From contig JAWPHD010010993.1 of NCBI GenBank assembly GCA_037043455.1, positions 23,829-87,828 on the forward strand: 64,000 nt of DNA, written 5' to 3'. The notes under the pieces were generated by a model, which was not told the DNA's origin, ran no database searches, and saw nothing but the letters and a program-made list of their open reading frames with translations. The position numbers and the translations under genes were made by a program. Positions 1,392 to 64,000 of this stretch are shown piece after piece. Source of the stretch: Cyrtodaria siliqua (Eukaryota > Mollusca > Bivalvia > Adapedonta > Hiatellidae). Positions within the stretch are counted from its first letter, which is position 1, and each line of letters starts with the position of its first letter.

Positions 1392-1397
1392 CCCATT

Positions 1398-3053: not shown

Positions 3054-3080
3054 CTATGTATACTAATAATTAGATTGTTT

Positions 3081-5598: not shown

Positions 5599-5700
5599 TA
5601 TATAATATCACATGAGATTATTTCTTTAAGCTTATCATTATTTTATTTGATTATTTCAAAGTAAAATATTTGCTTCCTGGTTAGATTATATTATTTTTAT

Positions 5701-15139: not shown

Positions 15140-15845
15140 CAAATACACGAAATTAAAAAACACAGGAATGACAATGCAAATAAAGGCACGTGCCATCAAA
15201 AACACAAAATAGTTGACAATAGGGCTACCGCCTTGGTACGGTCATTAGCAAAAATGCAGTTTCTAGGGTGCACCAAACCTCATACTTATCCTTTTTTCAT
15301 CCCAATAAAAAGGAACAGTGTAAATAGAGAAATACCCGCCATGATATAGTCTCTAACCAACAAGTCAGCATAATAGACAATATAAGTAAAACACAAACAT
15401 ACTCATGTATATATGAATATAAAAAACAATAGCATAGAAAACCACAAAGAAGGTACTCAGTGACTTGACAGAAGCCTAACATCAGAAGAATAAACCATTT
15501 AGGGTACGACAAGATAAGATTGCAAACAAACATCAAAGGTTACCGTCCTTTTTAGCTTTAGGTAGATGTCATTATAGGGTCCACAGTATGTCCGGTCATC
15601 GTGCAATTAAAGAGGAAAGCAATGGCGAACTGTAAATGGGTCAACCACCAAGCATGCAGTAGGTTGCAAAATGATAGAATCATAACCTCTTTTGATAAAC
15701 CTTTTTACAAGTTCTTCAAGGATAATATGCAAATAATCATGATCAAGTATCTTACGAAGTTGGTAAATCACTTCACCATAGAAATCATGTTGTGGTAGAA
15801 CTTGTTGCAGTAGAGTTCTTAAAATACTTTTTATATTTCGAAAGA
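15140..15845 (-). mobile_element. YLDD retroelement, diverged 3' part
   Basis: This copy contains the GGGCTACCGCCTTGG, GTGCACCAAACC, CCAACAAG.CAGCAT, CGTGCAATTAAAGAGGAAAGC and ACCACCAAGCATGCAGTA blocks and a short remnant of the RT C-terminus. It stops at about 15845, 30 bases before the deaminase exon 2 acceptor. It is more diverged than the copy at 8210-9406. Confidence 0.75.
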
Positions 15846-15875
15846 AGGTAACACATGTATTGCTTTCTTATACAG

Positions 15876-16521
15876 TTTTCTACGTACCGGTTCGAAGACA
15901 ATTGAAAGACTTCAATTAGAAATGGTTATCAGCTATTCACCGTGCTTTGCATGTGCAGACCGACTAATCAAATTCCGACGACGTCTAGAAGCAGACGATA
16001 TCTGGGTATCGATTTCCATTAGAATTGCCAACTTTTATAAATCTTACGAAGCGAGGCAGCTGACATGTTTATGCAGATTACACGAAAACAATTTTGTACT
16101 CGAAGTTTTTGACTGGAATTATTGGAGAGTATATTTGAGAAAATGTATGCCTGATTTTGATGAAGATACGCATTTCATGATGTACCGTAATGGACGTGAA
16201 GAACGAGATCAGATTGATGCTTATATACTTGAAACTGTTAAAGTTACTTTTAAATTTGAGGTATTTTATAAATTTAAGCAAAACGGCTTTATCAAATTTG
16301 GTCATCCAAAGTGGACTGAAATCGGAAATTCAAAAACGGCTGAGGATTCGGATAAACTATGGACTATGATTTCGGGTTGTTATAAACACATATATAACAT
16401 TTTTAATACTTGTCCTGAAGGTAACCTCATCAAGATAAGGGATTTAATTCGACGAAGGATTGAGGACACTGACATATCGATATCAAGATCAATAGGGTCC
16501 TACTCTCACCAATTACAGTAA
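15876..16521 (+). CDS. AID/APOBEC-like cytidine deaminase, exon 2
   Basis: Exon 2 supplies residues 116-330. After a short linker it reads MVISYSPCFACADRLIKF. P138, C139 and C142 form the PCxxC half of the zinc site (codons at 15940-15954). Next comes the SISIRIANFYKSYE strand-helix typical of the family, then a segment with RLHENNFVLEVFDWNYW that resembles the position of the AID/APOBEC beta-5/helix region. The spacing from E70 to P138 is longer than in vertebrate AID, so another isoform or small exon arrangement is possible. The C-terminal 90 residues are lineage-specific and I cannot assign them. The stop is at 16519-16521. The protein could act on retroelement or viral nucleic acid or on host RNA; nothing here decides. 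Confidence 0.8.
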
Positions 16522-27062: not shown

Positions 27063-27440
27063 CTGAAAAGATAGAGGCCTTGTCAGGCAGGCGGCTCTTT
27101 ATGCTGTGTTTGTGAATAACAGCTGCTGCAGCTACCTTATCTCCATCTTTAGAACCATCTGTGTATATATGTTGAAAGTTACTGTATTTCGATTTAATTT
27201 CATTAAATTTGCTTTGAAAGACAGTAGGGTCTGTACTGGATTTGTTACTATTACAAAGATCAAAAATAATTGTTGGTGTTTCCAAAGTCCACGGTGGAAT
27301 TTGTGGTACTTTGTACTTGGCAATTAAATTTAGGTCGATTTCAGTGTCTCTTAATTTTGGTTTAATACGAAGACCAAATGATCGAATGGCCTTCGGTTTT
27401 CGATCAAAAAGAGGTTCATAACTTGGATTAAAAACACTTT
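27062..27440 (-). pseudogene. LINE RNase H segment, inverted relative to the LINE body
   Basis: The minus strand reads PPWTLETPTIIFDL, then HIYTDGSKDGDKVAAAAV and SRLPDKASIFSA. The YTDGSK and SIFSA motifs belong to the RNase H domain of I-group LINEs. The domain stops at TCAGCTGA where the plus-strand LINE body ends, so the two parts meet head-on. At its other side (about 27440) it is fused in frame to a viral gene. Confidence 0.75.
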
Positions 27441-27921
27441 GTTTCTGTCTCCAGTCTGAATATAAATCAACGTTAAACTCCTTGCATATTCTCTCGTATG
27501 CGTTTCGGTTATATGTGTTATTAAACGCATTCCAATTTGAGTCTTGTGGCATTGCTACACTCATTTCAAATAATATTCTTCTGACTTGGTAATAGACATG
27601 AAATCGAAATAACGAACCAACCAAATCATCAGCTTTTAGATGATTGTTGAAATCAATGCCACATCCAGTTGTCGCACACCAAATAGCAAAGTTTAACTGA
27701 TTCTGCCAAAATAACATCCAATCTGTTCCCCAACGTTGGACTATAGCATCTGATTTGACGTATGGGAGTTTGTATTTTTCGAAGACATTGGGAAATGATG
27801 CTTTAAAGCCTTTGCCGTCTGATGTTATAACTATGTTTTGATTTATTATATCTATCACTTTCTTGCTAAAAGTATTTGAATAGTGAGCATCTGGGTTATA
27901 TTTGAATTCTTTAGAAATCAT
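27435..27921 (-). pseudogene. large viral structural protein, N-terminal part
   Basis: From ATG at 27921 about 160 residues are viral (MISKEFKYNPDAHYSN..., then LNFAIWCATTGCGI and FRFHVYYQVRRILFEMSVAMPQD, then NRNAYERICKEFNVD). Beyond this the frame runs on into a LINE RNase H segment, so the C-terminal part of the viral gene is gone. The start is divergent from the gene at 27958, with 36 AT-rich bases between them, a shared promoter region. I know similar proteins only as uncharacterised sequences in invertebrate genomes, and I believe this is a virion component, possibly capsid-associated. No enzymatic motif is seen. Confidence 0.5.
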
Positions 27922-27957
27922 TTTTATTTGTGTTTTTATATATATATATTAAAAAAA

Positions 27958-28602
27958 ATGTTTCATACAATTTCAAACATAGACAACTCTATTAATTTAC
28001 AACAGTATATCGATAATAGAGATGGAACTAAGCGCGTTGGATTAAAAAGTTTTACATACACTATCGGTTGGTATAATATTATTCATGAAGTCATAAAGAC
28101 ACGAAACCCAGATAAAACAGAACATTTACCAGGTGGACTCTATAACTTTCAAGACTGGGTAGAAGATTTTAAAAAGCTAAATGAAAGTATTATCCTGGAC
28201 AGTATTGTCCAAATTGGTACAGCCATTATACATACGCCGGTAGAGACACGTATGTCAAGCGGTCTTTCAAAAATGCTAGGATTCAAGGACAGAAAATGGT
28301 TGACAGGTGCTAATATAGGAGATTACCCAATTGATTTAGCTCCTTATAAACAGCTTTATGTTCATCTGAAACAAGTTAATATAAGTAGTAATTATTTCAA
28401 TGGTGCACCAAGCACTATTATAGGTGTTGTACCTGTAGTAAATAAGCAGTTTGGAGATATAGTATATACAAGTTTTTATCCTGAATATCACTGTCTTATG
28501 AATGGTGCAATTACTAAATTGAAAATAGAAGTCAGAGATGAGTATGGTAACAAAAAAAATAATCACGGTTTGCCTATGAGTTGTGTTTTAGAAATTATTT
28601 AA
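27958..28602 (+). CDS. viral structural protein, possible penton/minor capsid
   Basis: The ATG at 27958 directly follows TTAAAAAAA, the leader pattern seen before other genes of this lineage. I prefer it to the in-frame upstream ATG at 27883, which lies in the divergent gene. The 214-residue product is rich in beta-strand-like segments and ends KLKIEVRDEYGNKKNNHG followed by a hydrophobic strand. It has a GGLYNFQDWVEDF segment near residue 60. The size and beta-rich nature fit a jelly-roll minor capsid (penton-like) protein, but this is inference with no diagnostic motif. The gene is intact and heads a three-gene run (27958, 28628, 29147) on the plus strand with 20-25-base gaps. Confidence 0.5.
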   Translation: MFHTISNIDNSINLQQYIDNRDGTKRVGLKSFTYTIGWYNIIHEVIKTRNPDKTEHLPGGLYNFQDWVEDFKKLNESIILDSIVQIGTAIIHTPVETRMSSGLSKMLGFKDRKWLTGANIGDYPIDLAPYKQLYVHLKQVNISSNYFNGAPSTIIGVVPVVNKQFGDIVYTSFYPEYHCLMNGAITKLKIEVRDEYGNKKNNHGLPMSCVLEII

Positions 28603-28627
28603 AAAATATATATTTATAAAAAAAACA

Positions 28628-29125
28628 ATGAGTATATATGGACCAACAAGACCTAAAAAAACAGAAGACTTAGAGGCTTTGATAAATGATGTTCAAAATT
28701 TATATAGGCGAATTGCGCCTTTTGTTGACCAGTTTAATCATTTAAAAAATAGAGTTGATAATCTTAAATATGGGATTATAACAATATTTGCAGAAGCTAA
28801 GGGCCCACTTGTGTCAAACAGAATACTCTCATTTGGTAACGGCGGGGCAGAAAAAAATGTGGGGCATGTAATGACACGCCGTGGACGGATTATGGGAATA
28901 GGTTTAGCATGTGAACAATTAGTTGGTGACGTATCTGTAATAGTTTCTGTCAATGGTGTTGAACAACCAAATTATGGCATAACGCTTCACATCATTCCAC
29001 GCAATCTAGATAACTTTGATAAACCTTTAGAAATTGGTGCTGGTTCTGTTGTTAACTTTGTATGCAAGATTGCCAACGCTACAGCTGTAAATACGGTGGC
29101 ATCATTATTAATTGAATTAATTTAA
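28628..29125 (+). CDS. fibre-like protein: N-terminal coiled coil and C-terminal beta domain
   Basis: The 165-residue protein starts with heptad-like sequence (EDLEALINDVQNLYRRIAP... to about residue 55). A beta-rich domain follows (SFGNGGAEKNVGHVMTRRGR, GDVSVIVSVNGVEQPNYG, AGSVVNFVCKIANA). The C-terminal domain is homologous to the protein at 51309-51629 of the third element, which lacks the coiled coil. A trimeric stalk with a globular head is the layout of viral attachment fibres, so a receptor-binding or vertex role is plausible. This is inferred from architecture, not from a known family. The gene is intact. Confidence 0.55.
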   Translation: MSIYGPTRPKKTEDLEALINDVQNLYRRIAPFVDQFNHLKNRVDNLKYGIITIFAEAKGPLVSNRILSFGNGGAEKNVGHVMTRRGRIMGIGLACEQLVGDVSVIVSVNGVEQPNYGITLHIIPRNLDNFDKPLEIGAGSVVNFVCKIANATAVNTVASLLIELI

Positions 29126-29146
29126 TTTTTTATTTATTAATAAAAA

Positions 29147-29740
29147 ATGCCGAAGCAACCAACGGCACCAAGTATATATCCTGATTTGCCAGTGGAAAAT
29201 TCAGTGGAAAACGGACAAAATTATAGATTACAAAAGATTTCAGAAATTGAAAAAAAGTTAATTACAGAACGAGATATACGTCAGTCACTTTATAAAAAAT
29301 ATAAACGTGGTATTAATATTACAGATGGAATTGACACTACCTTGATATCAGCAGGTGTTATTATGGCTGGGATTGGATTTGTTATTCCAGTTTTGCTACC
29401 TTTAGAAATAGCAGCAATAGTATGTGGAGCTGCAGGTGTTTGTGTTAATTTTATCAGACGCAAGCTTAATGCAAAAGCTCAAAAACATCATGAAATAAAA
29501 ACTTTGGCAGAGGCTAAGTTAAATAGTATAAAGCAGTTAATATCAAAAGCGTTGAGTGATGCACAAATATCTGATCAAGAGTTTAAGATGATTTTAGATG
29601 AGTTAGATAAATATTATAGTTTAAAAGAAGACACCAAACAAAAAAAGGCTAAAATAAGTGAAGCTCAAAAAAAAGAACTAGTAGAGCAGGGAAGAAAAGA
29701 AGCAATGGCAACCTTACAAAAAAGTCTAAAAAGTGTGTAA
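29147..29740 (+). CDS. viral membrane protein with flanking helices
   Basis: The 197-residue protein has a polar, proline-bearing N-terminus. A helical segment (YRLQKISEIEKKLITERD...) is followed by a hydrophobic double segment at about 65-98 (TTLISAGVIMAGIGFVIPVL...IAAIVCGAAG). A long charged helix then runs to the end (EIKTLAEAKLNSIKQLISKAL...). It is the last intact gene before the terminal repeat at 29830-30062. The arrangement suggests an internal or membrane-anchored virion component. I recall similar uncharacterised proteins in other invertebrate genomes but cannot verify this. No enzymatic motif. Confidence 0.55.
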   Translation: MPKQPTAPSIYPDLPVENSVENGQNYRLQKISEIEKKLITERDIRQSLYKKYKRGINITDGIDTTLISAGVIMAGIGFVIPVLLPLEIAAIVCGAAGVCVNFIRRKLNAKAQKHHEIKTLAEAKLNSIKQLISKALSDAQISDQEFKMILDELDKYYSLKEDTKQKKAKISEAQKKELVEQGRKEAMATLQKSLKSV

Positions 29741-30062: not shown

Positions 30063-30129
30063 ATATATGTGTTTATTTTGGGGTCGTTCTGCTGCAATTC
30101 GTGGTAAAAAAAAAATTACAACAGAAACC

Positions 30130-30883
30130 CCAAAATACATATATATCCGGTTCCAAATAAAACTGGTTTAGAAATTATCAAAGCGTTCCAACAGATAATC
30201 AGTACAGGAAGACAGTGTAAATTGTTGTGGGTTGATCAAGGTGTGGAATTTTACAACAAAACGTTTAAGCAATTTCTTGATGATAATAATATCGAAATGT
30301 ATCACACGTTTAATTTTGGAAAAGCTGTAGTAATTGAACGATTTAACAGAACCATAAAAGAAAAGATGTGGAAATATGTTACAGCTAACAATACAAATAC
30401 ATATTTAGACGTGTTGCCAGAAATGGTTGATAAATACAATAATACAAAACATCGGAGTATTAAAATGACGCCGATTGAGGCTAGTGATGAGAAAAATAAA
30501 GGAACGGTATATTTCAACTTGTATGGAAAAATGAGAAGTAATCAAATTAAGCCAAAGTTCAAAATAGGGGATAATGTTAGAATCAGTAAATATAAAAGAA
30601 CTTTTGAGAAAGGTTATACCCCGAATTGGACTGAAGAAATATGTGTTGTTGATAAAATTCAAAGCACAAATCCTGTGACATACAAAATAAAAATTTAAAC
30701 AACGAAAACATTGACGGAAGCTTTTATGAATTAGAAATGATAAAAGCAAAGCAAGAAATATTCAGGATTGAAAAAGTAATACGACGTGATTTTAAAAAGA
30801 AACAAGCGTTGGTTAAATGTAAGGGTAACAATGAGAATTTCAATAGTTGGGTCTCATTTAAGGATATTGAAAATATTAAATAA
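30130..30883 (+). pseudogene. Polinton-type integrase, C-terminal two thirds
   Basis: The frame opens without an ATG (near 30130). It contains LLWVDQGVEFYN with the second catalytic Asp and VIERFNRTIKEKMW with the catalytic Glu of rve integrases. Then KYNNTKHRSIKMTPIEA and a C-terminal domain starting FKIGDNVRI follow. At about 30690 a frameshift leads to YELEMIKAKQEIFRIEKV and a NSWVSFKDIE ending, a chromodomain-like tail of Polinton integrases. The N-terminal part with the first Asp is absent. It lies outside the terminal repeat of the second element and more resembles the integrase remains at the left window edge, so it probably belongs to another Polinton. Confidence 0.75.
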
Positions 30884-48141: not shown

Positions 48142-49748
48142 GGCGTATTCTTACGAACCCCTTACACATTTCCGGTCGTTTACGGGACCATTGTTATTTT
48201 CAATTTTGAAATTATGTTTTGTATATGCATTATGATTATATATCTTGTTGTATAGTAAGAACAAAAGGTTGTATGAGAGTGTGCTTGGTTTAATCATTAA
48301 ACATTTATATTGTGTTTCATTATATGATACTGTTTGTTTTAGAAAACATATGACTAAAACAACATTATATTGGGTCATGCAACGCATGACCCCTTTCAAT
48401 TGCATACACGGATGTTTGTCTTCTTTTACCCCGGACTGAGGATCATAAATATCCAGTTATGCCTGCATAACGTGTTTTATGAACAAGTCTGGGGGGTCAT
48501 TATTGATAACGTCAATATTAGATGATCAGCATCTTATTATCACGCGCAGGAACATGAGTTCAGTGTGTGCTCCATGCTGATTGTCTATTTTATGGGCGCG
48601 CCCATGAGAAGTTGGGCGTCTGGAACACCAGTCATTCAGTTTATATTTATCAATGGATAGAGAGAGAACGCAATTTGCCCACCTCCACCCCTTGTATATA
48701 TATCTATATACACCTTCCCCATTGTGTCGAACCTCTTCCAGGGCGTATTCTTACGACCCTTTCCACATTTCCTGTCGTTTAGGCGGCGCCGGCGTATTCT
48801 TACGAACCCCTTACACATTTCCGGTCGTTTACGGGACCATTGTTATTTTTAATTTTGAAATTATGTTTTGTATATGCATTATGATTATATATCTTGTTGT
48901 ATAGTAAGAAAAAAAGGTTGTATGAGAGTGTGCTTGGTTTAATCATTAAACATTTATATTGTGTTTCATTATATGATACTGTTTGTTTTAGAAAACATAT
49001 GACTAAAACAAAATTATATTGGGTCATGCAACGCATGACCCCTTTCAATTGCATACACGGATGTTTGTCTTCTTTTACCCCGGACTGAGGATCATAAATA
49101 TCCAGTTATGCCTGCATAACGTGTTTTATGAACAAGTCTGGGGGGTCATTATTGATAACGTCAATATTAGATGATCAGCATCTTATTATCACGCGCAGGA
49201 ACATGAGTTCAGTGTGTGCTCCATGCTGATTGTCTATTTTATGGGCGCGCCCATGAGAAGTTGGGCGTCTGGCACACCAGTCATTCAGTTTATATTTATC
49301 AATGGATAGAGAGAGAACGCAATTTGCCCACCTCCACCCCTTGTATATATATCTATATACACCTTCCCCATTGTGTCGAACCTCTTCCAGGGCGTATTCT
49401 TACGACCCTTTCCACATTTCCTGTCGTTTAGGCGGCGCCGGCGTATTCTTACGAACCCCTTACACATTTCCGGTCGTTTACGGGACCATTGTTATTTTTA
49501 ATTTTGAAATTGTGTTTTGTATATGCATTATGATTATATATCTTGTTGTATAGTAAGAAAAAAAGGTTGTATGAGAGTGTGCTTGGTTTAATCATTAAAC
49601 ATTTATATTGTGTTTCATTATATGATACTGTTTGTTTTAGAAAACATATGACTAAAACAAAATTATATTGGGTCATGCAACGCATGACCCCTTTCAATTG
49701 CATACACGGATTTTTGTCTTCTTTTACCCCGGACTGAGGATCATAAAT
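48142..49748. repeat. tandem 649-bp repeat, about 2.5 near-identical units
   Basis: Units start at 48142, 48791 and 49440 (GGCGTATTCTTACGAACCCC). They differ by only a few bases. Each has the hairpin GGGTCATGC-AAC-GCATGACCC (first at 48372-48392), and GGCGTATTCTTACGA recurs within the unit. The frames that repeat every 649 bases are not convincing genes. Confidence 0.8.
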
Positions 49749-49764
49749 ATATATATAAATAAAT

Positions 49765-51062: not shown

Positions 51063-51239
51063 TAAGGTAACTGACACATTTCAATAGAAATTAATAAGGT
51101 ATTGAAGATTGCAAGTTCAAAAAATTGTACCTGAGCTATATTTTCAGGATTTTGAAACTTCTTGAAATCCTAAGGTATTGAAGATTGCAAGTTTAAAAAA
51201 TTATAAATGTTTGTCTAATACAAAACAAAATTATTGATT
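51063..51239. repeat. left terminal inverted repeat of the third viral element
   Basis: The outer part (51063-51095, TAAGGTAACTGACACATTTC...) matches the complement of 62477-62508. The inner part (51096-51239) matches the complement of about 62031-62173. It contains two copies of the 13-mer TGAAGATTGCAAG (51103, 51180). Confidence 0.75.
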
Positions 51240-51308
51240 ATCGAATATAATAAAATAAAAAAATATAATAAAAAATATTATTTAATCCTCCGAGCTTGAT
51301 ACGCTGAA

Positions 51309-51629
51309 TTAAATTAATAGAATTAATAATGACACCATCGTATTCACAGTGTTAGCGTTAGCAACCTGGCATACAAAGTTAATAACAGAACCAGCACTAA
51401 TATCTAAAGGTCTATCAAAATTATCGTGTTTGCGTGGGGTGTTGTTAAGCGTTATACCATAATTTAGTTCTTCAACACCATTTACAGTGACCACTACAGA
51501 CACGTCTCCAATTATAGGATCACTTGATAAACCTATTCCCATAATCCGCCAATGGCGTGTCATCACATACCCCACATTTGTTTCTCTTCCCCCATTACCA
51601 AATGACAATACTTTACCGTCTTTCTGCAT
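51309..51629 (-). CDS. fibre-like beta-domain protein (short form)
   Basis: The 106-residue protein is homologous to the C-terminal domain of the gene at 28628-29125: LSFGNGGRETNVGYVMTRHW, GDVSVVVTVNGVEELNYG, AGSVINFVCQVANA. It lacks the N-terminal coiled coil. Either the start is lost or this element uses a separate stalk protein. It is the first gene inside the left terminal repeat and lies 3 bases from the coiled-coil membrane gene upstream. Attachment or vertex function is inferred from the domain layout of its relative. Confidence 0.55.
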   Translation of the reverse strand: MQKDGKVLSFGNGGRETNVGYVMTRHWRIMGIGLSSDPIIGDVSVVVTVNGVEELNYGITLNNTPRKHDNFDRPLDISAGSVINFVCQVANANTVNTMVSLLILLI

Positions 51630-51632
51630 TAC

Positions 51633-52899
51633 TTATTTACGAGATTTACTGAACCACTCTTTAGCTGCAACATATAACAACCCGGAAACAAACACAAGCA
51701 AAGCCTATCGATTGTTACCAAGCCATTTAATAACATTACCTGGTGCAGATAAAAGCCATGATACTATTGCACCAATAACTCCTGGAAGTGCTGCAGCAGC
51801 TTTCCCAGCTAAATTAGCTAGGAGTTTACCAAGATTACTTAGTGTTTTTTTTATCCAGTCCTTAACACTTGATGGATCAGATTTTGGAGATGGAGCAGCA
51901 CTTGATGTGGGAATAATAGCATTAATTATCACCCCAAGAATCATACCAAATGCAGCTAGGATACTAACAATAGTAATACCTTGCTCCCTAAACAAGGTTT
52001 TAATCCTTTCACCAAGAGTTGCATCCTCGTTTTACATTTTATTTATTGTCTCTCTTATTTTGCTTACTTGGTTACGGAAAGCTTCTCTGTTCTCATTGAT
52101 GGCATCCATCCTTGCACCTCTCTCAAATTCAAAGTCTTTAATGCGATCGCTTAGTCTATTGATCTGAAATTCATCATTATCAGTTTTAGCTTGTTCTAAC
52201 TTTTGTTTTTCTCTTATCATGTTTTTATCAAGTTGCGTGAGTTTTTCCAAGTTATTGATATTTTCTTCCTTGGCAGTTGTCATCGCTTTCACTATTCCAT
52301 CCATTTCACGTTTGTTTATATTTGTTTGTGTTTCAACACCAGAAAGTTTGTCCCAGTCATGAAGTGACTGTACTGTGTTATTCATTATATGTGGTAAATC
52401 TTGTAATGGAATAGCATCCACGTCTGGTAAATCATTTGTCGAGCTTTTTGTGATAATTTTGTTTTACTGTTATACTCTGGCAAATTCAAAAATTGTCTTA
52501 CAGCCATTGTTCCCCCAGAGCCATATTCTTTTGCCAAAGAACCAAGAGCAAGAAATGTTGCACCACCTTGCTTGGCAGTTATTCTTATTTCTTTATCACC
52601 AACAACCCAGTATAATGTTTTACCATCATCTGATACTTTAAACTGGTCATAATCCATTTTGTCCGGTGCCATTTTATATAGTATTCCTATTTCATCATAA
52701 AAGGATTTTACAAGATTTTTCTTATGTGCTTCAAGTTCGGATTCTCTCAACTCCCCACGAAGGTTAGCAAGATGGTCGCTTTGATTAAAAGACTTCTTTG
52801 AACAGGCTCATTAGGCACCATTGGTAAATTATCCAAATATTCATCATAATCATCTGGATCAAACGTAGGATTATCAAAGTTATATCCACCCTCAGCCAT
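51633..52899 (-). pseudogene. coiled-coil membrane-anchored viral protein, broken
   Basis: The start at 52899 (MAEGGYNFDNPTFDP) leads into an acidic, proline-bearing N-terminus. A frameshift at about 52790 follows, then a segment with VSDDGKTLYWVVGDKEIRI and FLALGSLAKEYG. After a second frameshift near 52400 comes a long coiled coil (NNLEKLTQLDKNMIREKQKLEQAK..., 52421-52032). A stop at about 52034 precedes a hydrophobic helix (ITIVSILAAFGMILGVI), an Ala/Gly-rich second hydrophobic region and, past another stop near 51705, a third hydrophobic helix ending at 51633-51635. The layout suggests an anchored rod, perhaps a membrane-spanning vertex or entry protein. I know relatives only as uncharacterised invertebrate proteins. 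Confidence 0.5.
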
Positions 52900-52946
52900 T
52901 GTTTATTTTATTTAGTTTTAAAAAAATATATTCAAAAATAAAAACA

Positions 52947-54367
52947 ATGTCTACATACGGAAACAAACTCGACCCTTATAGAAAACTATAAGAAAACATC
53001 ATGGTTCCAAGGGCATCCGCACAAGTGTAATAATAACAAATAATCCATCAACAATAGACCAAAACCAGCAACTGCTTGTGAGATTTCCCAATTTAATTAC
53101 TAATGATGTGATAGTTCCACGTACTGCTCGTCTTGCCTTTGAAATAGAACTTAAAAGTACAGACGCCAACGCTACTATATACCAGAATCTGGGTAGAGCA
53201 ATTGTGAAAAAATGACAATAAAAATAAGTGGCAATGAAGTCATGTCAATAGACGACAGTGATATATATTATTGTTATATAGATTTATGGAAATGCTCCAC
53301 CGAACGATTAAACATGGCTTACCAAGGTGTTAGTGAGGTAAACATGCTAAAATATAGAGTTGGTGCAGATGCTAATGATGAAGCTGTAGCAGCAGCTTAT
53401 GGAAATAGATTTTGTATTCCACTGGACTTTGAAATGTTAGAAAAGAAATATAAAAAGATCGGACAGAGAAAGTAGCATTCAAGGAGGACAATAAACCACA
53501 AAACACAGAAACAAACACTCAAACAGACAAACAAGAAGGCAAAAGCAATAATAAATGCAAACGACATCACAAACACAAAAAGGGTTGACAATAGGGCTAC
53601 CGCCTTGGAAGTCATATGCCATTTTATCAAGCGGGGTTTGGTGATAGGTTAGAATATGAATTAACGTTTAACAATTATAACAAAGTTATCAAAAGCAGTG
53701 ATGCTAATGCATCTTATGTAATAAAGAATATCTGCTTGGAATTTGATATGGTTAGTGATGTTGAATTAACCAGACAAATAAGACAGCAAATTAATGATAA
53801 GATGTCATTTATGTATGATCGTATCTTGCGACATAGAAAAATAAAAGCAAAACAATCTGATACCCTTTGGAATATCAACATTAATGTACCAGCACTGATC
53901 ATGAAAGGTATTTTAATGCTGTTTGAAGACCCAGAAAGAACAGACACGGAATTCTTTTACAATCCAAAGATTGAAAAGGTTGAAATGATAATAGAGGGTG
54001 TACCAAATCAGTTGTATAGCCAGGGCATACAGGCATATCAACAATGGGATGAAATCAACAAACTTTTTGCCCTAACATAAAAAATAAAAAAAAAGAGACA
54101 GACATAGTGGCGAGGGACTTATGTCTTACCAATGTTTCTCTTAAGACTTATCTAACAAAATCATATGCCTTGTGGCTTGATCTTAGAACATGTGATGACA
54201 ATTTATTACACGGCAGTGGAAGAAAAATAGAAAACGGCAGTGAAGGCATAACGATACTAATAAATAAAAAAGCAGAAGAAGATAAACCTTTAAATATTTT
54301 TATATATATAATACAAGATGCAGGAATCAATTTCGAAGATAGAAGATTCAAAGAAGTACGATACTAG
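52947..54367 (+). pseudogene. putative major capsid protein, frameshifted and interrupted by a retroelement
   Basis: The ATG at 52947 follows AAATAAAAACA. The open reading breaks near 52990, resumes with TIDQNQQLLVRFPNL, shifts again in an A run at about 53210, and continues (KISGNEVMSIDDSDIYYCYIDLW...YGNRFCIPLDFEMLE). Retroelement DNA is then inserted (about 53437-53610). The frame resumes at about 53612 with MPFYQAGFGDRLEYELTF and a RILRHRKIKAK segment, and a last shift near 54090 gives the end (YALWLDLRTCDD...). The full length would be about 420-430 residues, beta-rich, a size that fits a double jelly-roll capsid. It lies directly before the packaging ATPase, the usual place for a capsid gene. 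Assignment rests on position, size and composition; structure prediction is needed. Confidence 0.5.
53437..53610 (-). mobile_element. short 3' fragment of the YLDD retroelement within the capsid gene
   Basis: The insert starts at AAGAAATATAAAAAGATCGGACAGAG and ends at GGGCTACCGCCTTGG. Capsid codons lie on both sides. It is one of the least diverged copies in the window, so the insertion is relatively recent. Confidence 0.8.
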
Positions 54368-55004
54368 TTTGTTCAAACACAAATATCCTAAATATCCACA
54401 CAGTGCCATTATCTGTGGCCAGACAGGCTGCGGTAAAACAGAGTTTGTTCTTGACATACTCGAACAAGAGTATGTTGGAGTTTTTGAACATATAATTATT
54501 TTGTGTCCGACCATAGAGTGGAACGAGGCTTATAAAAATAGACCCTGGATAGGTGATGTAAGACACCCGAGAGATAAAAAAATAACAATGGTCAATCCCG
54601 TGAGCAACGGTAAAGAAATGTTACAAGAACTGTTGCGTTTATTTTTCAAACAATATGCTGGCAAGCCTACATTATACATCATTGATGATTGCTCCGCCAC
54701 AAAAGAATTAACAAAGAAAAAGGATATATTATCAGAGTTGGCATTCTCTGGTCGTCACACAAAACAATCCGTGTGGGTTATTTCACAGAGATATAATTCT
54801 ATATTGAAAGATTTGAGGGAGCAAGCAAAATGGTTGTGTATGTTTTACACTAATGACAGAGATAGTTATGAAACTTGTTTGAGAGAGAATGATGTTATTC
54901 CGACGCTGGAGGAGAAAACCAGAATAAGAAAAGCTTTAGCAAAGACTAAATATTCCAAGTTAATTTTGAGGACCGACCAACCAATTGGCTATTGGGTTGA
55001 ATAA
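54318..55004 (+). CDS. A32/FtsK-HerA-type genome-packaging ATPase
   Basis: The intact 228-residue protein has a Walker A motif GQTGCGKT (residues 34-41) and a Walker B TLYIIDDCS (118-126). A following SELAFSGRHTKQSVWVISQRY (139-159) carries the sensor-like Gln and an Arg. This is the compact ATPase used by Polintons, poxviruses and relatives to pump DNA into the capsid. Its ATG lies inside the end of the capsid gene, so the two overlap by about 50 bases in different frames. It is the best-preserved long gene of the element. A close relative in another group would be the poxvirus A32 family. Confidence 0.85.
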   Translation: MQESISKIEDSKKYDTSLFKHKYPKYPHSAIICGQTGCGKTEFVLDILEQEYVGVFEHIIILCPTIEWNEAYKNRPWIGDVRHPRDKKITMVNPVSNGKEMLQELLRLFFKQYAGKPTLYIIDDCSATKELTKKKDILSELAFSGRHTKQSVWVISQRYNSILKDLREQAKWLCMFYTNDRDSYETCLRENDVIPTLEEKTRIRKALAKTKYSKLILRTDQPIGYWVE

Positions 55005-55009
55005 TTTGT

Positions 55010-55310
55010 TAAGCATTGCTGTTAGCAATGCTCTTTTTTATCTAACAGCATTGCTTTGTTGCTAATAGTAATACTAACAGTAAAGTAGCAATGTTAATAG
55101 CAAAACTAGCATGAAAATATAATGAAAATATCGGGAAATATAGTAATGCTTATAGCATTGCTCATAGTAAAGTAGCAATGCTAATAGCAAAGCTCATAGC
55201 AAAGAAGCAATGTTAATAGAAATGCTTGCAGCAAATTAACAATGATAATAAAAAAATAGCAAATATTAATAACAATGCTATTAACAATACTAACAATTAC
55301 TAGGTGCGTG
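55010..55310. repeat. short-unit repeat (AGCAATGCTAATAGCAA type)
   Basis: Many imperfect units such as AGCAATGCTAATAGC and GCAATGTTAATAGCAA lie between the ATPase and the next gene. They are not coding. Several adjacent units form small inverted pairs (GCATTGC/GCAATGC). Confidence 0.6.
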
Positions 55311-55352
55311 GTGAATATCGCAACTGGTTGTTTTGCATTTTATATTTATTCC

Positions 55353-55858
55353 ATGATAAAAAATAAAATTATTGATATATTACAAGATATATTGGAAGGT
55401 TTCACGGAACACACAGATGAATCAAACTAACAAGACACAAAAAAAGAAAGATTATCAGCTATAGTGGCTAGCGGTGGCAGCCTTCAATATTTGGGTAGAG
55501 ACATACAACTCACGACTATAGATAGTATGCCCCCGGATGAAATTAACAAACTTTACTGCAGATAGCAAGGCTTGGAGCAAGCATGTCTAAGACTTTAGGT
55601 AATTATTTTATTGACTTGTATGTGATGGGAGTATCAAATTATTTCAATGTGATCAATCCACCAAAACTGATAAAAGATTTGGAGGAAGATCCATTTATTT
55701 ATCATGCTTTAGCAAGTGCGTGTTGTGAGTTATATTACAGGTATGGGATGTATTTAGCGCCATTTACAGCAATGCTGACAACTGTTAGACATATTGATTT
55801 TAATAAAAATAGAAATAAAATTATAGATAATGTAAATGATGGAGAACCAAGAGAGTGA
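55353..55858 (+). pseudogene. unknown conserved viral protein, frameshifted
   Basis: The ATG at 55353 begins a helical protein. A TAA stop lies at about 55428. The same frame continues with IVASGGSLQYLGRDIQLTTID until near 55563, where a frameshift leads to KTLGNYFIDLYVMGVSNYF, PPKLIKDLEEDPFIYHALAS and CCELYYRYGMYLAPF. It ends at 55858, overlapping the next gene by 20 bases. The product looks alpha-helical with a partly hydrophobic C-terminal part. Family and role unknown, but the position in the structural gene run suggests a virion protein. Confidence 0.45.
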
Positions 55859-56222
55859 AGTTGCTACAGTTGCTACACAACATGTTGCTACACAACAAAA
55901 AATAAAAAATCCAAAACGAATAGAAGCTGGGAAAAAAGGGGCAGCGGCAAGAAAGGCAAAGAGTTTGGTAGATGCACAGGATGCAAAGCATGTAAAGCAA
56001 GATGAAATATCAAAAGTAACAAAAGGTGAAGAGGAACCAGAAAAATACATTAAAATAAATGTATATAAACATTATAGTCCACTGTGTGTGGTTTTATTAG
56101 GCATTGATGCGTTGGGTTTGTATATCTATAACACGAAATCTCTCGCTACGCAATCTATTGCTACACAACCTGTTGCTGCGCGATATGTTCCCACTTTACC
56201 AAAATACCCGTTTGATTTTTAA
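55839..56222 (+). CDS. small single-span membrane protein, basic N-terminus
   Basis: Starting at ATG 55839 (an ATG three bases upstream is also possible), the 127-residue protein has repeats of VATQ and then a Lys/Ala-rich basic region (KNPKRIEAGKKGAAARKAKS). A single hydrophobic span follows (PLCVVLLGIDALGLYIYN, about 82-99), then a Thr/Gln repeat tail (LATQSIATQPVA) ending with PKYPFDF. Small spans with basic tails are common in viruses with internal membranes. Unknown family. It overlaps the pseudogene upstream. Confidence 0.45.
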   Translation: MENQESEVATVATQHVATQQKIKNPKRIEAGKKGAAARKAKSLVDAQDAKHVKQDEISKVTKGEEEPEKYIKINVYKHYSPLCVVLLGIDALGLYIYNTKSLATQSIATQPVAARYVPTLPKYPFDF

Positions 56223-56261
56223 TAATTTATTTAAAAAAAAATAATCATATTAAAAAAAAGA

Positions 56262-56477
56262 ATGGCAACAAGTATTGACGGAAAACAAATTGTAAATATG
56301 ATGTATCACGCTGGGGTGGAAACACTTTTAACTATTGGATATTCTGAGATTGGCAGAAAACTACTAAGAAAACCAGCTCCTAAAGTGGATTTTAATATGA
56401 TAGATTTTGGGATGCTGTCTGTGGATATAATGTTAGCAATGGCTACAAAGGATATGTTGATTAAGCGGATATTATGA
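56262..56477 (+). CDS. small hydrophobic viral protein
   Basis: The 71-residue frame, with ATG after TTAAAAAAAAGA, contains LLTIGYSEIGRKLLRKPAP. The tail is MLSVDIMLAMATKDMLIKRIL. It may associate with membrane. No known motif. It is the middle of a run of three small genes with AT-rich, A-ending gaps of 34-40 bases. Confidence 0.4.
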   Translation: MATSIDGKQIVNMMYHAGVETLLTIGYSEIGRKLLRKPAPKVDFNMIDFGMLSVDIMLAMATKDMLIKRIL

Positions 56478-56511
56478 AGTAATTTAAAAAAAATTATACT
56501 ATATAAAAAAA

Positions 56512-56937
56512 ATGGCAAGTGCAGTAGCAATGATGATCGGTGGTGCATTAACAAACGCATTGGCGTTTAGCGGTTCAAATTATCTGTTTTCAAAAATGGG
56601 AAGTCATTCAGATGAGGAAAGACAAAGACATGATAAAGCTGTGGAACAATTGGAAGCAGCACAAGCGGCGTGGAATAAAAAAAGAACAGAGAAATTAGAT
56701 TTTATTAACAAGCAACTGCAAAAAGAGCATCATGCAGAGCAGACATTTGATAATGTGGACCAGGCTATGAAGCAGTATTATTACATAACTGGTAAACATT
56801 TGCTTTTGGAACCAGAACCGGAGCCTATGTTGAGTGATTTTTATACACCATCTCCGGATCAACATACTAGAGAGATTATGTTTATTGTGGTGGGTATGGC
56901 TGCAACTGGGTTTGTGGCGTATAAATTGATTTCATAA
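56512..56937 (+). CDS. two-span membrane protein with central coiled coil
   Basis: The 141-residue protein is intact. Its hydrophobic N-terminus is VAMMIGGALTNALAFSG (residues 4-20), and a charged heptad region (DEERQRHDKAVEQLEAAQAAW...) follows to about 80. An acidic LEPEPEPMLSDFYTPS linker then leads to a C-terminal span (IMFIVVGMAATGFVAYKLI, about 122-140). Such proteins could bridge capsid and membrane. I recall similar uncharacterised sequences in other invertebrate genomes, unverified. The ATG directly follows TATATAAAAAAA. Confidence 0.55.
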   Translation: MASAVAMMIGGALTNALAFSGSNYLFSKMGSHSDEERQRHDKAVEQLEAAQAAWNKKRTEKLDFINKQLQKEHHAEQTFDNVDQAMKQYYYITGKHLLLEPEPEPMLSDFYTPSPDQHTREIMFIVVGMAATGFVAYKLIS

Positions 56938-56990
56938 AAAAAAAAAAAAAAAAAATTACTTTGAAATGATCTTTGGAAAGACTAAGATAC

Positions 56991-57320
56991 TTATTTTTGT
57001 TGTTTCTTTGGAAAGACTAAGTCATATGCATGATACTTATTTTTTTTGTTGTCTATGCATGGTTTTAATCCAAGTGGTCGAATATAATATGGTGGTTCAG
57101 AGCTTGTCTTTTCTATTTTTATTTTGAGATGACCAGGCGCCCATACTTCACCGTTATCTAATAATGTCAATACCATGGATGGTCCATACCCAACATCCTG
57201 TATTTTTGTTTCTGTAACAATATATATTTTATTTATTTTCAAGTCTGTCCATTTCCTCGTACTATATTGATTTTGTTCTTTGAGCAGTTCATCAAATTGT
57301 GTCGTTGTGATTTGTTCCAT
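56991..57320 (-). CDS. small beta-rich protein, possible OB-fold
   Basis: The 109-residue protein alternates short strands (KIYIVTETKIQD, SMVLTLLDNGEVWAP, PYYIRPLGLKPC) and ends with a basic aromatic tail (NKKNKYHAYDLVFPKKQQK). The strand pattern and length would suit a single-stranded DNA-binding OB fold, which would fit a replication role next to integrase and PolB, but no diagnostic motif proves it. It is divergent from the integrase with 46 bases between starts. Intact. Confidence 0.4.
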   Translation of the reverse strand: MEQITTTQFDELLKEQNQYSTRKWTDLKINKIYIVTETKIQDVGYGPSMVLTLLDNGEVWAPGHLKIKIEKTSSEPPYYIRPLGLKPCIDNKKNKYHAYDLVFPKKQQK

Positions 57321-57366
57321 TTTTTTTTATATTTATATAACTTTTAATCTTTACAATAAAAAAAAA

Positions 57367-58281
57367 ATGGAAAAGATTTATTACAGTCCCAAAGGATTTT
57401 GGAGAGGTTACTCAGCAGTTAAACAAATTGGCAAAAGAGGCTGGTGTTAGTGAAAACAAGGCATTAGAATTTTTAAAGAAACAAGCTGTGTGGCAGATTT
57501 ATTTACCCGCACCCAAGAAAATAGTTAGACCCAGGTTTGATGTTTCTACTAAAAATGGTGTGCATCAAGCTGATTTATTATTTTTACCGCATGACACTTT
57601 TGGCTTTGGCCGTGGACGCAAGACATATAAATATGCATTGACAGTGGTTGATATTGCGAGTAGACATAAAGAAGCAGAGCCACTAACTTCCAAGGATAGT
57701 AAAGAAGTTGCCAAAGCATTTGAAAATATATACAGTCGGCATCTAAAATATCCAAAATTATTACAAGTGGATCCAGGTAGAGAATTCATGGGTGCAGTAT
57801 CACACTTGATGATGAAACATAAAGCAAATATTAGACGAGGCAGTACAGAGATACATAGAGACCAAGCTATAGTGGAAAGATTTAACAGAACATTAGCTGA
57901 AAGATTGTTTGGTTATCAGTATGCTAAGGAAATAGATTCGCAAAAACGCAACAGAGAGTGGGTAAAAAGATTACCAGAAGTTGTTAAAGCAATAAATGTG
58001 GAGACAAAAAAGGCCCTCCTATTGAAATAAAAACACTAAAAGATGATCCTATCTGTATAAATGCTAGTGTAAGATATTTATATCAACCCAGGGAACATGA
58101 CGGTGGAAGACGTAGAGCAACCGATACAATATGGAGTGTAGCTATTCACAGGATTAATAATTATATGATAACAAAAGGTATAAGAGTATATTATTTAAAA
58201 ACACCAGCACCACAAAGAGGATTTGTCAAAGAAGAACTACTTATTGTTCCTGCTAATACCCAAACGCGCATGTCTTTATAG
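57367..58281 (+). pseudogene. retrovirus-like integrase, two frameshifts
   Basis: The ATG at 57367 follows an A run. The first 20 residues (MEKIYYSPKGFWRGYSAVK) are separated from the rest by an indel near 57424. The core carries HQADLLFL (first Asp), LQVDPGREF (second Asp) and AIVERFNRTLAERLF (Glu), a complete D,D,E set. A second indel near 58010 leads to an SVRYLYQP, RRRATDTIWSV and GFVKEELLIVP C-terminal domain, stop at 58279-58281. The sequence type differs clearly from the Polinton integrase at 30130-30883. It would insert the viral DNA into the host genome. The stop codon abuts the convergent PolB stop. Confidence 0.7.
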
Positions 58282-61200
58282 GTGTTTAAAAAATCCATGT
58301 GCATCAGTTATAATCCCACATGGCCGGATGTATCTTTTAGAGTAAAATGGTGGCAGTGTTACTTTGTTTACTGTTATACCATATATTTGATGCTTCATCG
58401 AGCGTATCATATTCATATCATGGGTGTATTTTTTTCTGTTAAACAATGCATCCTTGTAGTTCTCAAAGTTGATATGTTTTTCGATTACATATTGTTTTAC
58501 TCCCTTTGCTTTCTTAATAATCTGCTAATCCGCTCTCAAAATAGAATATAGTTTGGGTCTCAATCCAACATACTCAACTATATGAACACCAGAACACTCA
58601 TCTTTCTTCTTGCCTACTACTTTTTTATTTGTATTATCGTGCAGTGGATGGTTTTGTGGATAATCACTCAAATCATACTCATCTTTCATTTCAGCCATGT
58701 CTTTGTAGACATCTTCTGTTTTGATGTCTACAAGCAAGCTATCAGTGTCTGTGTATAATAAAGTACATTTATTCCGGTATCTTTTCTTTAGGGAATTATA
58801 GTACCAGTCATACATCTTGTACTTTGAATAATCCAATACTGTCATCCCCACATAGATTGGTTTGTTTAATTTTATTATTGTTTTGTTTGAATGTAATGCC
58901 GCCAAAACATCTGAAAATGTTATCCACCTGTTAAAGTTGGGTTTAGCTGTTATTTTTCTTATTTTTTCATTTCGAGAGCCGTCAGTTTTAACTAGTTTTA
59001 TATAAGTCCACTTGCATATATTTTCCATTGTCTTACCATAAACAGAGTTGTTCATAAGTTTGTAAAAAGCTATTTCAAAGTCTGATTTAGCTCTTTTCCT
59101 AAGTTCTGTGTTTAGATTTATGTATGATGCCATCCATGGTTTTTCATTAAATTCTAATATTCTATGTATTTTCTTCAGTTTCATGCCTAAAGCTAAATAC
59201 AGTTGCAGGTTTTTGTAATGTAACACATATTTTTCTTTGTCCATAAGATTGGGGACTAGTTGTTCTATATTTATCAATCCATTATTTTCCAACAGATCTG
59301 TCTGGTATTCGGACAACCATTCTTTTTTCACAGCTATTCTTTCCGGTGCAAGTGGATAAGCATTGTGAGCTTCATGAGTTCTTTGGGATATTCCAAATCA
59401 ACTTCACGTATTTGTCCTTTGCCAGGATCGGAGAGTGGAAATTTATCTTCTGTCCACGGAACATCATCTTCTAATGCCCACTCAAACCCAGAATTTGGAA
59501 GTTGCTGACTCATTGCCCATCCATAAAGGTTATTCTCATCAAGATTCATTAAGTAGTTGTTTTCCTCGTTAGGGTTATAATCAACTACATGTGGATTGTT
59601 TGCTTTTGCATATCGTTTTGATACCATACTAATTCCACCACGCATGCCTTTTCTATAAATAAGTGCATGTCAATGTCTGTCAAAAGTTCTAAATCTATTC
59701 CTGTTTTAAAAAGTAAAGCATCCCAACTTAATCCAGGTGCTGTATAGTAGTGCAAAGGTTCAAGCCTGTATGCATTCTTACATATTTTTCTAAAATTTTG
59801 AAACACATCTGCTAACAAAGTTACATCAGTTTTTAGATATAAATCATGATAGTCTCCAACAGTTTTACAGTTAAACTCTTTCCATATTTTTTGAGGATAT
59901 TCATAATCTTCAGGACTTATACTTTCATCTGTGAGACTACTGTAAAACTTGTCTATAGGTGGCAATTGTGTTTCCTTAAATCTTTCCATACTGTCCATAT
60001 ATTCGTATGGATAAACACCTTTTCGCAGAAGTAAATCAGTTTGTTCTTTAAAAACATTTTTATTAATTTTGAACTCAGATTTATCAGTTGCATCAACCAA
60101 TTTTTCCAGGGACGAAGCCATAAATTGAAAACTATCTAAAAATCTGAGTTTTCCGACACTAAATGATATATACTTCAGCGTTGTTTGGGATACATTTAAT
60201 ATTACCTGACATTTTATGTATTTTTTGCATAATGAGATGACTATCATATCCTTTGAGGTTATGAAATACAACAGGGATGATTGTTTTATCTTTTTTTATG
60301 TTCAGTTTTAGGTTGCAGTTCTTGTGTGCTGCACCTCTGTATTCACCTGTTAAATGACAGTGGTCTCTTACGTTGCCGTTTCTACCCCATTTCCTACCTA
60401 TTTCCTTTTTGCATATCCAACAGTGTGTTGCTTTTTCATGATCTTCCTCATTTTGCTGCGTCATGATTACTGATTTTGGGTGAGCAAGTATATTATTAAT
60501 GTTGCTCTTTTCACATTCTAAGTGATTTAAAAACACTTCAACAGCATCAGGGTCATAGTTGTCATCTATAATTCCTTCATTTTCTAAATCATCAGGGTTA
60601 TAGTTATCATCTATAATTCCTTCTTCATTCTCTGAATCATCTTCATTTTCTGAATCATCATCTTCTCCATCCTCAATGTCTTCAGCTATTAAGAGCAGAT
60701 TAATTCGCTTCATATATTTTGGTTGTTTTGATGTGTAATATGAAAAAATGATTATATTATTATTTTTCACTTTATATCCAAAAATATTGATAGCAAGGTT
60801 GTTTTGTTTTTCTACTTTGGAAATTTGAGAAATTGGAGTGGGAAAGTCGATACCATTCATATTCAACTTACCCATGTATTTCTTATAACTAGATATCCTA
60901 TTTGGATTATTTTTATTAGGCCACAAAGCAGACACCAATGCTACTTCCAAGCAATTATTATCTTCATTATTAACATTGATTATTGCTTTCTTGTAAGCTA
61001 GTTTATTAGGTAGAGGAATATAAGAAGAACCTTTTAATGGTGAATACTTTACAATATTTAAGTAAAACTTAAGACAGTGATCAACTTCCAATCCTGATGC
61101 TCCATTCATAATTGTTTCAATGCCATGTACCATACCAGCACACGCTTCATCATAAAACTCATTCATATTTTCAGGAATTTCGATTGATTTTATCTCACTG

Positions 61201-61921
61201 CGTAATACAAATGTGTTGGCGTGTGTTTTGGTAGCACCATTGTCTTTATTTAAATCTACAGTGAAACCAAAATAAAAGTGTAATTCTCCCATTCTGCTAT
61301 TTCTTTTTTAATTTGTTTCATCATTTTTTTCTTTTTATCATGAAATACTTTTTGAGGGTCTTTATATCTCTTGACAGACATTACGTATGCTTTATATAAA
61401 TCGCATGGTGGTTTTTCAACAAGTCTTAATTTTCTATCATCAAACTCTTGGTTTAGTTCATTTATATCATTTTTTGATCATTCAGCATATCTCTTTTGTT
61501 CATTTTCTTGTAATTTCTTCTTTTCTTTGTTACGATGTTTTTTAGCACGTCGTCTCTTGCGTAAATCTAATGTTTGGGAAACAACCTCTTTTGGAGGTTC
61601 TTTTGATATTTCCTGCACTATAACTTCTTTTGGAGTATCCTTTGGAATTTCACGGGGTTTGATTGTAGTCCGTCGTGCTGGAACTGGTTTTACAGCTCGT
61701 GGTGCTGGAACTGGTTTTACAGCTCGTGGTGCTGGAACTGGAATTTTGCTTTTATTTTTTCTTTTCTCCTTGTTTTTTAAACTTTCCAATGCCTCCGATT
61801 CGGCTAGTTGGATAGCTACCGCATTAATACCATTTTCTAGTGTCTGTTTGCTTATTATTCCTGCATCAAACAGACGTATCAAATTTCTTATTATCTCTTC
61901 ATTGTTTTTTACATTATTCAT
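58276..61921 (-). pseudogene. polB: family B DNA polymerase, Polinton-like, several lesions
   Basis: I place the start at 61921 after a long A run. The N-terminus has a Pro-rich repeat (PVPAPRAVK) and a basic region, a stop at about 61478 and a frameshift near 61295. The following open frame (61292-60159) has an acidic insert (EDGEDDDSENEDD..., near 60660-60550), a Cys/His cluster (CWICKKEIG...DHCHLTGEYRGAAHKNC) and Exo II HNLKGYDSHL. Exo I (D-x-E) is not found. After further shifts come YLKTDVTLLADVFQNF, motif A DENNLYGWAM (about 59535), motif B KLMNNSVYGKTMEN (about 59040) and motif C YTDTDSL (about 58745). The end is at 58276-58278. The enzyme would replicate the element by protein priming. 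This copy is inactive. Confidence 0.75.
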
Positions 61922-61959
61922 TTTTTTTTTTTTCATGTATTTAAAAAAAATTGTTTAAT

Positions 61960-62508
61960 ATAAAATTGTTTTTCTTAGAAAAATCATATTTTATTATATT
62001 CGTGTTTATTCGTTGATTTGGGTCTAATCAATAATTTTGTTTTGTATTAGACAAACATTTTATAATTTTTTAAACTTGCAATCTTCAATACCTTAGGATT
62101 TCAAGAAGTTTCAAAATCCTGAAAATATAGCTTAGGTACAATTTTTTGAACTTGCAATCTTCAATACCTTAGGATTTTAAGAAATTTCACATTTTTTGAA
62201 ATTTACAACAATACCCCCAGAATGGCTATATATTGTTAAACTCAGAACATAACAGTACGCCCAAAAGCAAAAGTCACAAAACTAATACCTGGTATATCAA
62301 AATATGCGTAGGAGATGTCAGGCGTGCATTGCCGCTAATGGTGGATATTGTGACTTTTGCTTTTGGGGTAGTACTGTTATATTTTGAATTTAACAAGTTT
62401 AATGTTGATCAATTTGAATAAAATGCTCAGTAATTCAACTGCAAATATGGTTAAATAGAATATATGAAATTAAAATTTAATTTCTATTGAAATATGTCAG
62501 TTATCTTA
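61960..62508. repeat. right terminal inverted repeat with a MITE inside
   Basis: The inner part (about 62031-62173) complements 51096-51239 and has CTTGCAATCTTCA at 62075 and 62151. The outer part (62477-62508) complements 51063-51095. About 300 bases separate them here and include a MITE at about 62249-62380. Confidence 0.7.
62249..62380. mobile_element. MITE with about 30-bp inverted repeats
   Basis: ATAACAGTACGCCCAAAAGC and AAAAGTCACAA at the left match the complement of TTGTGACTTTTGC and TTTTGGGGTAGTACTGTTAT at the right, with one or two mismatches. It is 132 bp, non-coding, and inserted in the viral terminal repeat. Confidence 0.7.
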
Positions 62509-62769: not shown

Positions 62770-63595
62770 TGTATTATGCCCCCGAAGGGTGGCATATAGT
62801 AGTCGCACTGTCCGTCCGTCCGTTCGGACGTCCGTCCGTACAATCGAGTGCGGTTAATAACTCTGACAATAATGAACGGGTTTTCAAATAACATGGCACA
62901 ATTGCTCACCACAAGAAGACGACATATTGCGCAAAAAATTTAGGTCAGTGGCTTTAAGGTCAATGTCACACTTAAAGGTCAAAGGTCAAATTGTGTCCGG
63001 TCAATAACTCTGGCATTCCTGGACGGATTTTCAAATAACTTGGCACAAGTGCTCAACACAAAAAGACGACAGTCGCGCATGAAACCCAGGATCGTGGCTC
63101 CAAAGTCAAGGTCACACTTAGAGGGCAAATGTCAAATCGTGTCCGGTCAATAACTCTGGCACTCTTTGACAGATTTTCAAATAATTTGGCACAAGTGCTC
63201 ACCACAACAAGACGACATGTCGTGTACAAAACCCAGGTACGTGGCTGCAAGGTCAAAGTCAAACTTAGAGGTCAGAGTTCAAATCGTGTCCAGTCAATAA
63301 CTCTGGCATTCCTTGACGGATTTTCAAACAACTTGGCACAAGTGCTCACCACAACAAGACGACGTGTCGCGCACCAAATCCAGGTCCGTGACTCAAAGGT
63401 CAAGGTCACACTTAGAGGTAAAAAGTCAAGTCGTGTCCGGTCAGTAACTCTGGCATTCCTGGACGGATTTTCAAATAACTTGGCATAGATGCTCACAACA
63501 ACAAGACGATGTGTCGCTCACAAAATCCTGGTCTGTGGCCCCAAGGTCAAGGTCACACTTAGAGATAAATGGTCAAATCGAGTACGGCCAGTACC
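62770..63595. repeat. satellite, unit about 145-150 bp (AACTCTGGCATTCCTGGACGG family)
   Basis: It starts with CCCCCGAAGGGTGGCATATAGT and a CCGTCCGTCCGTTCGGACGTCC stem. Five units follow with ATTTTCAAATAACTTGGCAC, AAGTGCTCACCACAACAAGACGAC and AAGGTCAAGGTCACACTTAGAGG. The frames in it are not genes. The rest of the window (63596-64000) holds nothing I recognise. Confidence 0.75.
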
Positions 63596-64000
63596 TATTT
63601 CCGTGCAAGCGTGTGCATGTAAAATAACTATCCACCCAAACGTGAACTTATAAAACATAATCTTATGAATATAATTAGGCACTATTAAAATATGTCCTGA
63701 TCTGTTTTGTTCTCCAAGGCCATATAATGCGTTAGAAGAGACTCATGAACCATAGCATTACTTACATCATGTGGCGTCGTGTACATGCGTGTCTTATGTA
63801 TTTTCTTATTCGAAGAAAGGGATGGCTATTTGTTTCTTTCATAAGTCACTCAAAGTCACTCATAATTAAGACAAAGCACAGAGCATGTGATAGCAAGAGT
63901 GGAGGTGTGGTGGCGGGAAGGTTGGGTGGAAGTGTACACAACTCAAATGCCGACAAAGAAGCTTGAACATTCATTCTTCTTAATCAGACTTTCAAAAGTT

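Follow-up and report, generated by a model that had tools for sequence, protein, structure and literature searches.

Polintons (Mavericks), the closest described relatives of the element considered here, generally feature an adenain-type protease in published descriptions, and this enzyme has been reported in 74% of them (PMC4028283). The sole significant match of a Hydra Polinton capsid was the giant-virus capsid VP54 (PMC4028283), and among animal capsids those of cnidarians alone are placed outside the main Maverick-Polinton cluster (PMC10120064). In one meldvirus, a polymerase with an OTU-like domain and an rve integrase are paired with a poxvirus-like capsid (PMC11071296). The Cys and His residues of the OTU-like domain have been described, and the domain has been proposed to cut the terminal protein from the polymerase (PMC11071308). 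Here we analyse positions 51063-62508 of a 64,000-nt stretch (23,829-87,828) of contig JAWPHD010010993.1 from the bivalve Cyrtodaria siliqua (the whole stretch being termed the window), which very probably hold a decayed copy of a high-copy, Polinton-type endogenous DNA virus from a branch whose capsid is divergent and giant-virus-like.

With Polintons the element shares terminal inverted repeats (TIRs), 6-bp duplications, an rve integrase, a family-B polymerase with OTU-type blocks, a packaging ATPase and a capsid candidate; it differs in having no adenain/Ulp1 protease detected with Pfam and a capsid matched to no Polinton family in the libraries scanned. About eleven genes are enclosed by inverted repeats between 51063 and 62508 (Table 1), and the Polinton hallmarks that an earlier sequence-only reading had attributed to this locus, namely inverted repeats, an A32-type ATPase, an integrase and a family-B polymerase, were all located within it, the polymerase in pieces. 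For the family, TIRs, the rve integrase, the A32 ATPase, the family-B motifs of the polymerase gene and a gene order common to the copies are established. We assign the element to the Polinton type because of this gene set and the 6-bp duplications, the latter taken from other copies. It adds a variant to the known Polinton kind rather than a new kind of element.

Ends and copies of the element in the genome

Six contigs of the genome (2.88 Gb, 26,948 contigs) carry TIR matches in opposite orientation, and the top-listed match of each of six pairs shows 86.6-96.2% identity over 128-525 nt, the window copy standing at 89%. Four other copies could be aligned at both ends and span about 13.8-14.6 kb, as calculated from coordinates, against 15-20 kb for Polintons (PMC10120064). 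Their termini start with a TA run, whereas AG or AGT repeats are described at the termini of vertebrate Mavericks (PMC8097293). Exact 6-bp flanking words (ACAGTA, ATCGCA and TAGGTA), taken as target-site duplications, are present in three of these four copies, and the fourth, on C676, gave TA-run matches only. A control with mismatched end pairings returned TA-run matches and, once, TCTCAC (C676 left with C5317 right), off the junction.

Places bearing the ATPase number at least 150 (150 scored of 3735 candidates), 118 of the 150 scored having no internal stop by hand count, and those bearing a 213-aa protein of the left arm likewise number at least 150 (scored of 3486 candidates). These counts are lower bounds, since each protein search scored at most 150 candidates. 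The two genes lie within 6 kb of each other on 16 of the 18 contigs that bear both, on opposite strands and with the 213-aa gene upstream (hand count); on C828 and C512 they are farther apart. As sought by the sequence-only reading, other copies in the same genome carry the same gene order.

The copy at 51063-62508 is both deleted and decayed, and presumably dead. It had been called near-complete, a description that we correct: compared with other copies, it lacks the outermost part of each repeat, three genes of the left arm and more than one third of the fibre gene. In particular, the outer 135-150 nt or so of both TIRs found in the copy on C808 are missing, and no target-site duplication can be read. 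Its left inner TIR (51088-51283) holds a repeated unit spaced 76 nt. Tandem repeats flank the element at 48142-49750 (unit of about 649 nt) and 62842-63657 (about 147 nt).

The capsid candidate and competing explanations

The capsid candidate, which had been drawn as a single frame at 52947-54367, consists in the window of five pieces and about 160 nt of a foreign repeat at 53443-53603. This insert is a piece of a dispersed repeat, which also matches near 6817, 8198, 13802 and 20563 and is presumably Penelope-like. A retroelement origin of the entire capsid region was considered and rejected, the dispersed repeat being limited to the insert. In copies L003 and L007 the frame is open and encodes 422 aa. 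A full-length open frame occurs in 7 of 26 copies scored, a sample in which 20 had been picked for open ATPase frames and L003 and L007 were known to be open beforehand, L001 (the window copy) and L005 being excluded. Among the 21 pairs of these seven copies, median dS is 0.104, dN 0.048 and dN/dS 0.42, a ratio that points to past constraint.

Searches with this protein returned 3353 database relatives at E up to 1e-3, with 77-94% identity among the 120 listed. All 42 aligned members are matched by Pfam Capsid_N (PF16903), a family for the N-terminal jelly roll of giant-virus capsids, with a best E of 5.2e-5. The element shares with Nucleocytoviricota this weak N-terminal capsid match; it differs from them in its size of about 14 kb, in its integrase and in the absence from Pfam scans of any giant-virus gene beyond the ATPase and the capsid. 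Capsid_N was the only capsid family matched in Pfam, with no adenovirus-type hexon; for adintoviruses, a hexon recognisable by basic protein search is a typical trait. The earlier impression of an unfamiliar capsid is borne out, as no named Polinton or adintovirus model matched it in the libraries scanned. The Hydra case (PMC4028283) is a precedent for giant-virus-like capsids on Polintons, and with the Hydra or cnidarian Polintons the element would share a capsid resembling the VP54 type, a likeness drawn from published descriptions.

Several observations weigh against the reading of this locus as a Polinton-type virus with a giant-virus-like capsid. The Capsid_N scores are 17.3-19.5 where shown, compared with a curated cut-off of 24 bits, and cover about 48 residues; the 42 aligned members are about 80% alike, and therefore their matches are not independent. 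The C-terminal half of the protein and three scanned window pieces match no capsid model, and sequence searches of solved structures gave no credible match for the 422-aa protein. The 213-aa protein, a penton candidate by position alone, has neither a solved-structure match nor a consistent Pfam match. With regard to the polymerase, DNA_pol_B_2 does not appear among the matches of the open frame at E up to 0.5, the OTU Cys is absent from L057 and no OTU His block was seen in the window copy. More generally, solved-structure searches with the element proteins returned nothing useful.

The best-surviving alternative is that the element is a copy of a described Polinton or adintovirus family whose ordinary hexon has diverged too far for the libraries scanned. 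We consider this possible, if short of probable. Its gene set, integrase and polymerase OTU blocks would fit described groups (PMC11071308, PMC11071296), and the Hydra capsid likewise matched VP54 only (PMC4028283); on the other hand, the sole capsid family matched is a giant-virus model, and the 397-, 213- and 455-aa proteins of the element have no consistent library match. The failure to find a protease also argues against it: as the sequence-only reading had noted, no adenain-like enzyme is visible, and Pfam gave no adenain/Ulp1 match in the element open reading frames (ORFs) or in their open relatives; the protease is not universal in Polintons. The 397-aa protein was considered as a possible hidden protease and gave no Pfam match.

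A second explanation, which seems somewhat unlikely, is a meldvirus-type chimera in which adintovirus-like polymerase and integrase genes became joined to virion genes related to those of pox- or giant viruses. Such meldviruses have been described (PMC11071296), and the element likewise combines replication genes of Polinton type with a giant-virus-like capsid. With adintoviruses and meldviruses the element shares an OTU-like-domain polymerase and an rve integrase (PMC11071296); it differs in lacking an adenain, a recognised penton and an adenovirus-type hexon in the libraries scanned. A chimera would require conflicting gene trees, and the meldvirus is likened here by its published description. 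Finally, a capsid-free transposon moving by replication and integration only, in which the 422-aa protein is no capsid, would suit the weak and partial capsid match but is highly improbable given that a packaging ATPase adjoins the 422-aa gene and that this protein appears constrained (dN/dS) and is conserved at about 80% across sources.

Taken as a Polinton-type virus, the element likely represents a distinct lineage, its capsid having been compared through library models. Judged by titles and the starts of abstracts, no description of this bivalve element appeared among the literature results. In one bivalve genome paper, a table gives Maverick values of 1.69 and 1.93, presumably percentages of two assemblies, and its passages on Maverick content do not describe the element (PMC8905726). 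A stronger proposal, which we regard as distinctly doubtful, is that of an animal Polinton lineage that joins the usual integrase and OTU-bearing polymerase to a giant-virus-like capsid, needs no adenain and is still spreading between bivalves as particles. If so, the roughly 80% conserved capsid, the relatives in mussel records and in clam-symbiont and other public assemblies, and the open copies would reflect recent circulation. Were a very abundant invertebrate branch to combine a giant-virus-like capsid with the absence of adenain, this would imply that virion gene sets can be exchanged on a single backbone for replication and integration, and its many copies would offer a large set for asking whether Polintons form particles.

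Candidatus Thiodiazotropha is a clam symbiont. By source name, the 913 database relatives of the ATPase include Mytilus coruscus, M. edulis and assemblies of this bacterium, and in one of these assemblies the relatives of the capsid and of the ATPase (P0178, P0028) carry the neighbouring gene numbers N0C80_01725 and N0C80_01730. Annotators should be cautious in this regard, as the P0028, P0036 and P0178 relatives are named as proteins of Candidatus Thiodiazotropha. No relatives were found in IMG/VR viral contigs, prokaryote genomes or phage records, by single-sequence scans that reach close relatives only and may omit records close to the genome of the window.

Genes of the element and its missing left arm

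The polymerase gene is marked by a proline-rich N-terminus and an EndoVII-like zinc motif. Its window pieces (58525-61307) hold motifs A, B and C as well as EndoVII-like zinc and exonuclease strings, and match DNA_pol_B_2 below cut-off (E 5.9e-5) and Endonuclease_7 just above it (E 3.4e-5). In the open 1389-aa polymerase of L057, motifs A and C are accompanied by exonuclease strings and the EndoVII-like zinc motif. The ORF at 61478-61954 is the counterpart of the L057 N-terminus (39% identical). An OTU-type Cys block and a His block (HYCWI) are present in the polymerases of L058 and L060, short motifs on which the possible OTU cleavage of the element polymerase rests. The OTU region occurs as two sequence types among L057, L058, L060 and the window (60959, minus strand), which suggests recombination between subfamilies.

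The integrase had been described as unfamiliar, which is not supported: it belongs to the rve family, the open form of about 309 aa in L058 scoring above the Pfam cut-off (5e-8) and the window core at 57341-58030 below it (E 4.4e-6). NCBIfam linked it to IS481/IS3 transposases, below cut-off, and no chromodomain, a trait of adintovirus integrases, was found with Pfam. In another copy, a 1038-aa ORF (L059:1607-4720), LINE-polyprotein-like by eye, lies between integrase and polymerase parts, and the integrase frame breaks there. The ATPase was linked to terminase in a PHROGs scan (3.1e-15), which gave nothing else specific.

Putative roles were given to the fibre-like protein, the 213-aa protein and the membrane proteins from position and simple sequence features, membrane spans from a hydropathy window only and coils by eye. 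In other copies the left arm extends outward with a 397-aa protein, the 213-aa protein, the 172-aa fibre-like protein and a protein of about 200 aa with hydrophobic spans. The 397-, 213- and ~200-aa proteins have no tblastn match in the window copy, nor do the first 65 of the 172 fibre residues. The remaining fibre segment at 51307-51605 shows 82.6% DNA identity to 28829-29127, within fragment B, a piece of the same family outside the element (Table 1). Fragment B is followed at 30108-30698 by part of an rve integrase of another type, 32% identical to that of the element family.

The coiled-coil membrane protein proposed earlier, its coil judged by eye, is a single 455-aa ORF with hydrophobic C-terminal spans in another copy (L043:214-1578); in the window copy it is broken. 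In the supposed run of small membrane genes, hydrophobic spans are seen in several (Table 1); the first ones (55251-55855) form a single ORF elsewhere, of about 215 aa.

On the Polinton-type reading, the integrase would insert the linear genome, and the polymerase would prime from its own N-terminal region, which the OTU-like domain may then cut free. The ATPase would package DNA into a putative double-jelly-roll shell built of the 422-aa protein; the 213-aa protein may form the vertex (penton), and the small fibre-like protein could attach the particle. Such a branch would manage its maturation with no adenain-like protease.

Table 1. Features of the element and of fragment B in the window, with the evidence for each
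Feature	Positions	Strand	Evidence
Outer 32-nt inverted repeat, left	51063..51094		94% complementary to partner 62477-62508
Left TIR, inner part	51088..51283		198-nt match, 89%, to 61981-62178 reversed; resembles TIRs of other copies
Fibre-like protein (named by eye), C-terminal ~107 aa	51294..51614	-	64% to residues 66-172 of open 172-aa ORF
455-aa-type coiled-coil-like protein, broken	51636..52902	-	One frame covers residues 227-455, a second residues 1-25
Major capsid protein candidate	52947..54364	+	Five frame pieces, 73-85% each to open 422-aa copy
Foreign repeat within capsid gene	53443..53603		Window self-comparison; absent from open copies L003, L007
A32-type packaging ATPase	54318..55004	+	Open; Pox_A32 E 1.9e-11, above cut-off
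~215-aa protein	55251..55855	+	Two frame pieces; hydrophobic N-terminal span, 11-42 in open copy
~113-128-aa protein	55836..56222	+	One hydrophobic span in open copy
~71-85-aa protein	56262..56477	+	89% to open copy
141-aa protein, C-terminal hydrophobic span	56512..56937	+	Similar ORF in L057
109-aa protein	56991..57320	-	No Pfam match
rve integrase, broken into frame pieces	57361..58263	+	88% and 78% to open 309-aa ORF
Family-B DNA polymerase gene	58276..61954	-	At least five frame pieces and internal gap; tblastn of open 1389-aa ORF, motif positions, Pfam
Right TIR	61981..62205		Likeness to other copies spans about 61912-62210
Outer 32-nt inverted repeat, right	62477..62508		Partner 51063-51094
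Fragment B, same family, outside the element	27436..29737	- and +	397-aa residues 1-163 (-); 213-aa, fibre and ~200-aa (+); 86-95% to open copies

Other features of the window

A second, different virus-like element lies at about 140-5607 on the minus strand. It includes a phospholipase A2 domain behind a DUF5679 domain at 140-640 (PF08398 1e-13, PF18930 4.4e-12). The piece at 3725-4207 is from a polymerase (0.0029 to DNA_pol_B_2, below cut-off), and the pieces at 1781-2281 and 2586-3053 look capsid-like by eye, with no significant Pfam match. In addition, a 232-aa ORF at 15823-16521 on the plus strand matches AID/APOBEC-like deaminases (SNAD4 1.9e-9, NAD1 2.9e-8, APOBEC4 3.6e-8), an unexpected neighbour for so many virus-like elements.

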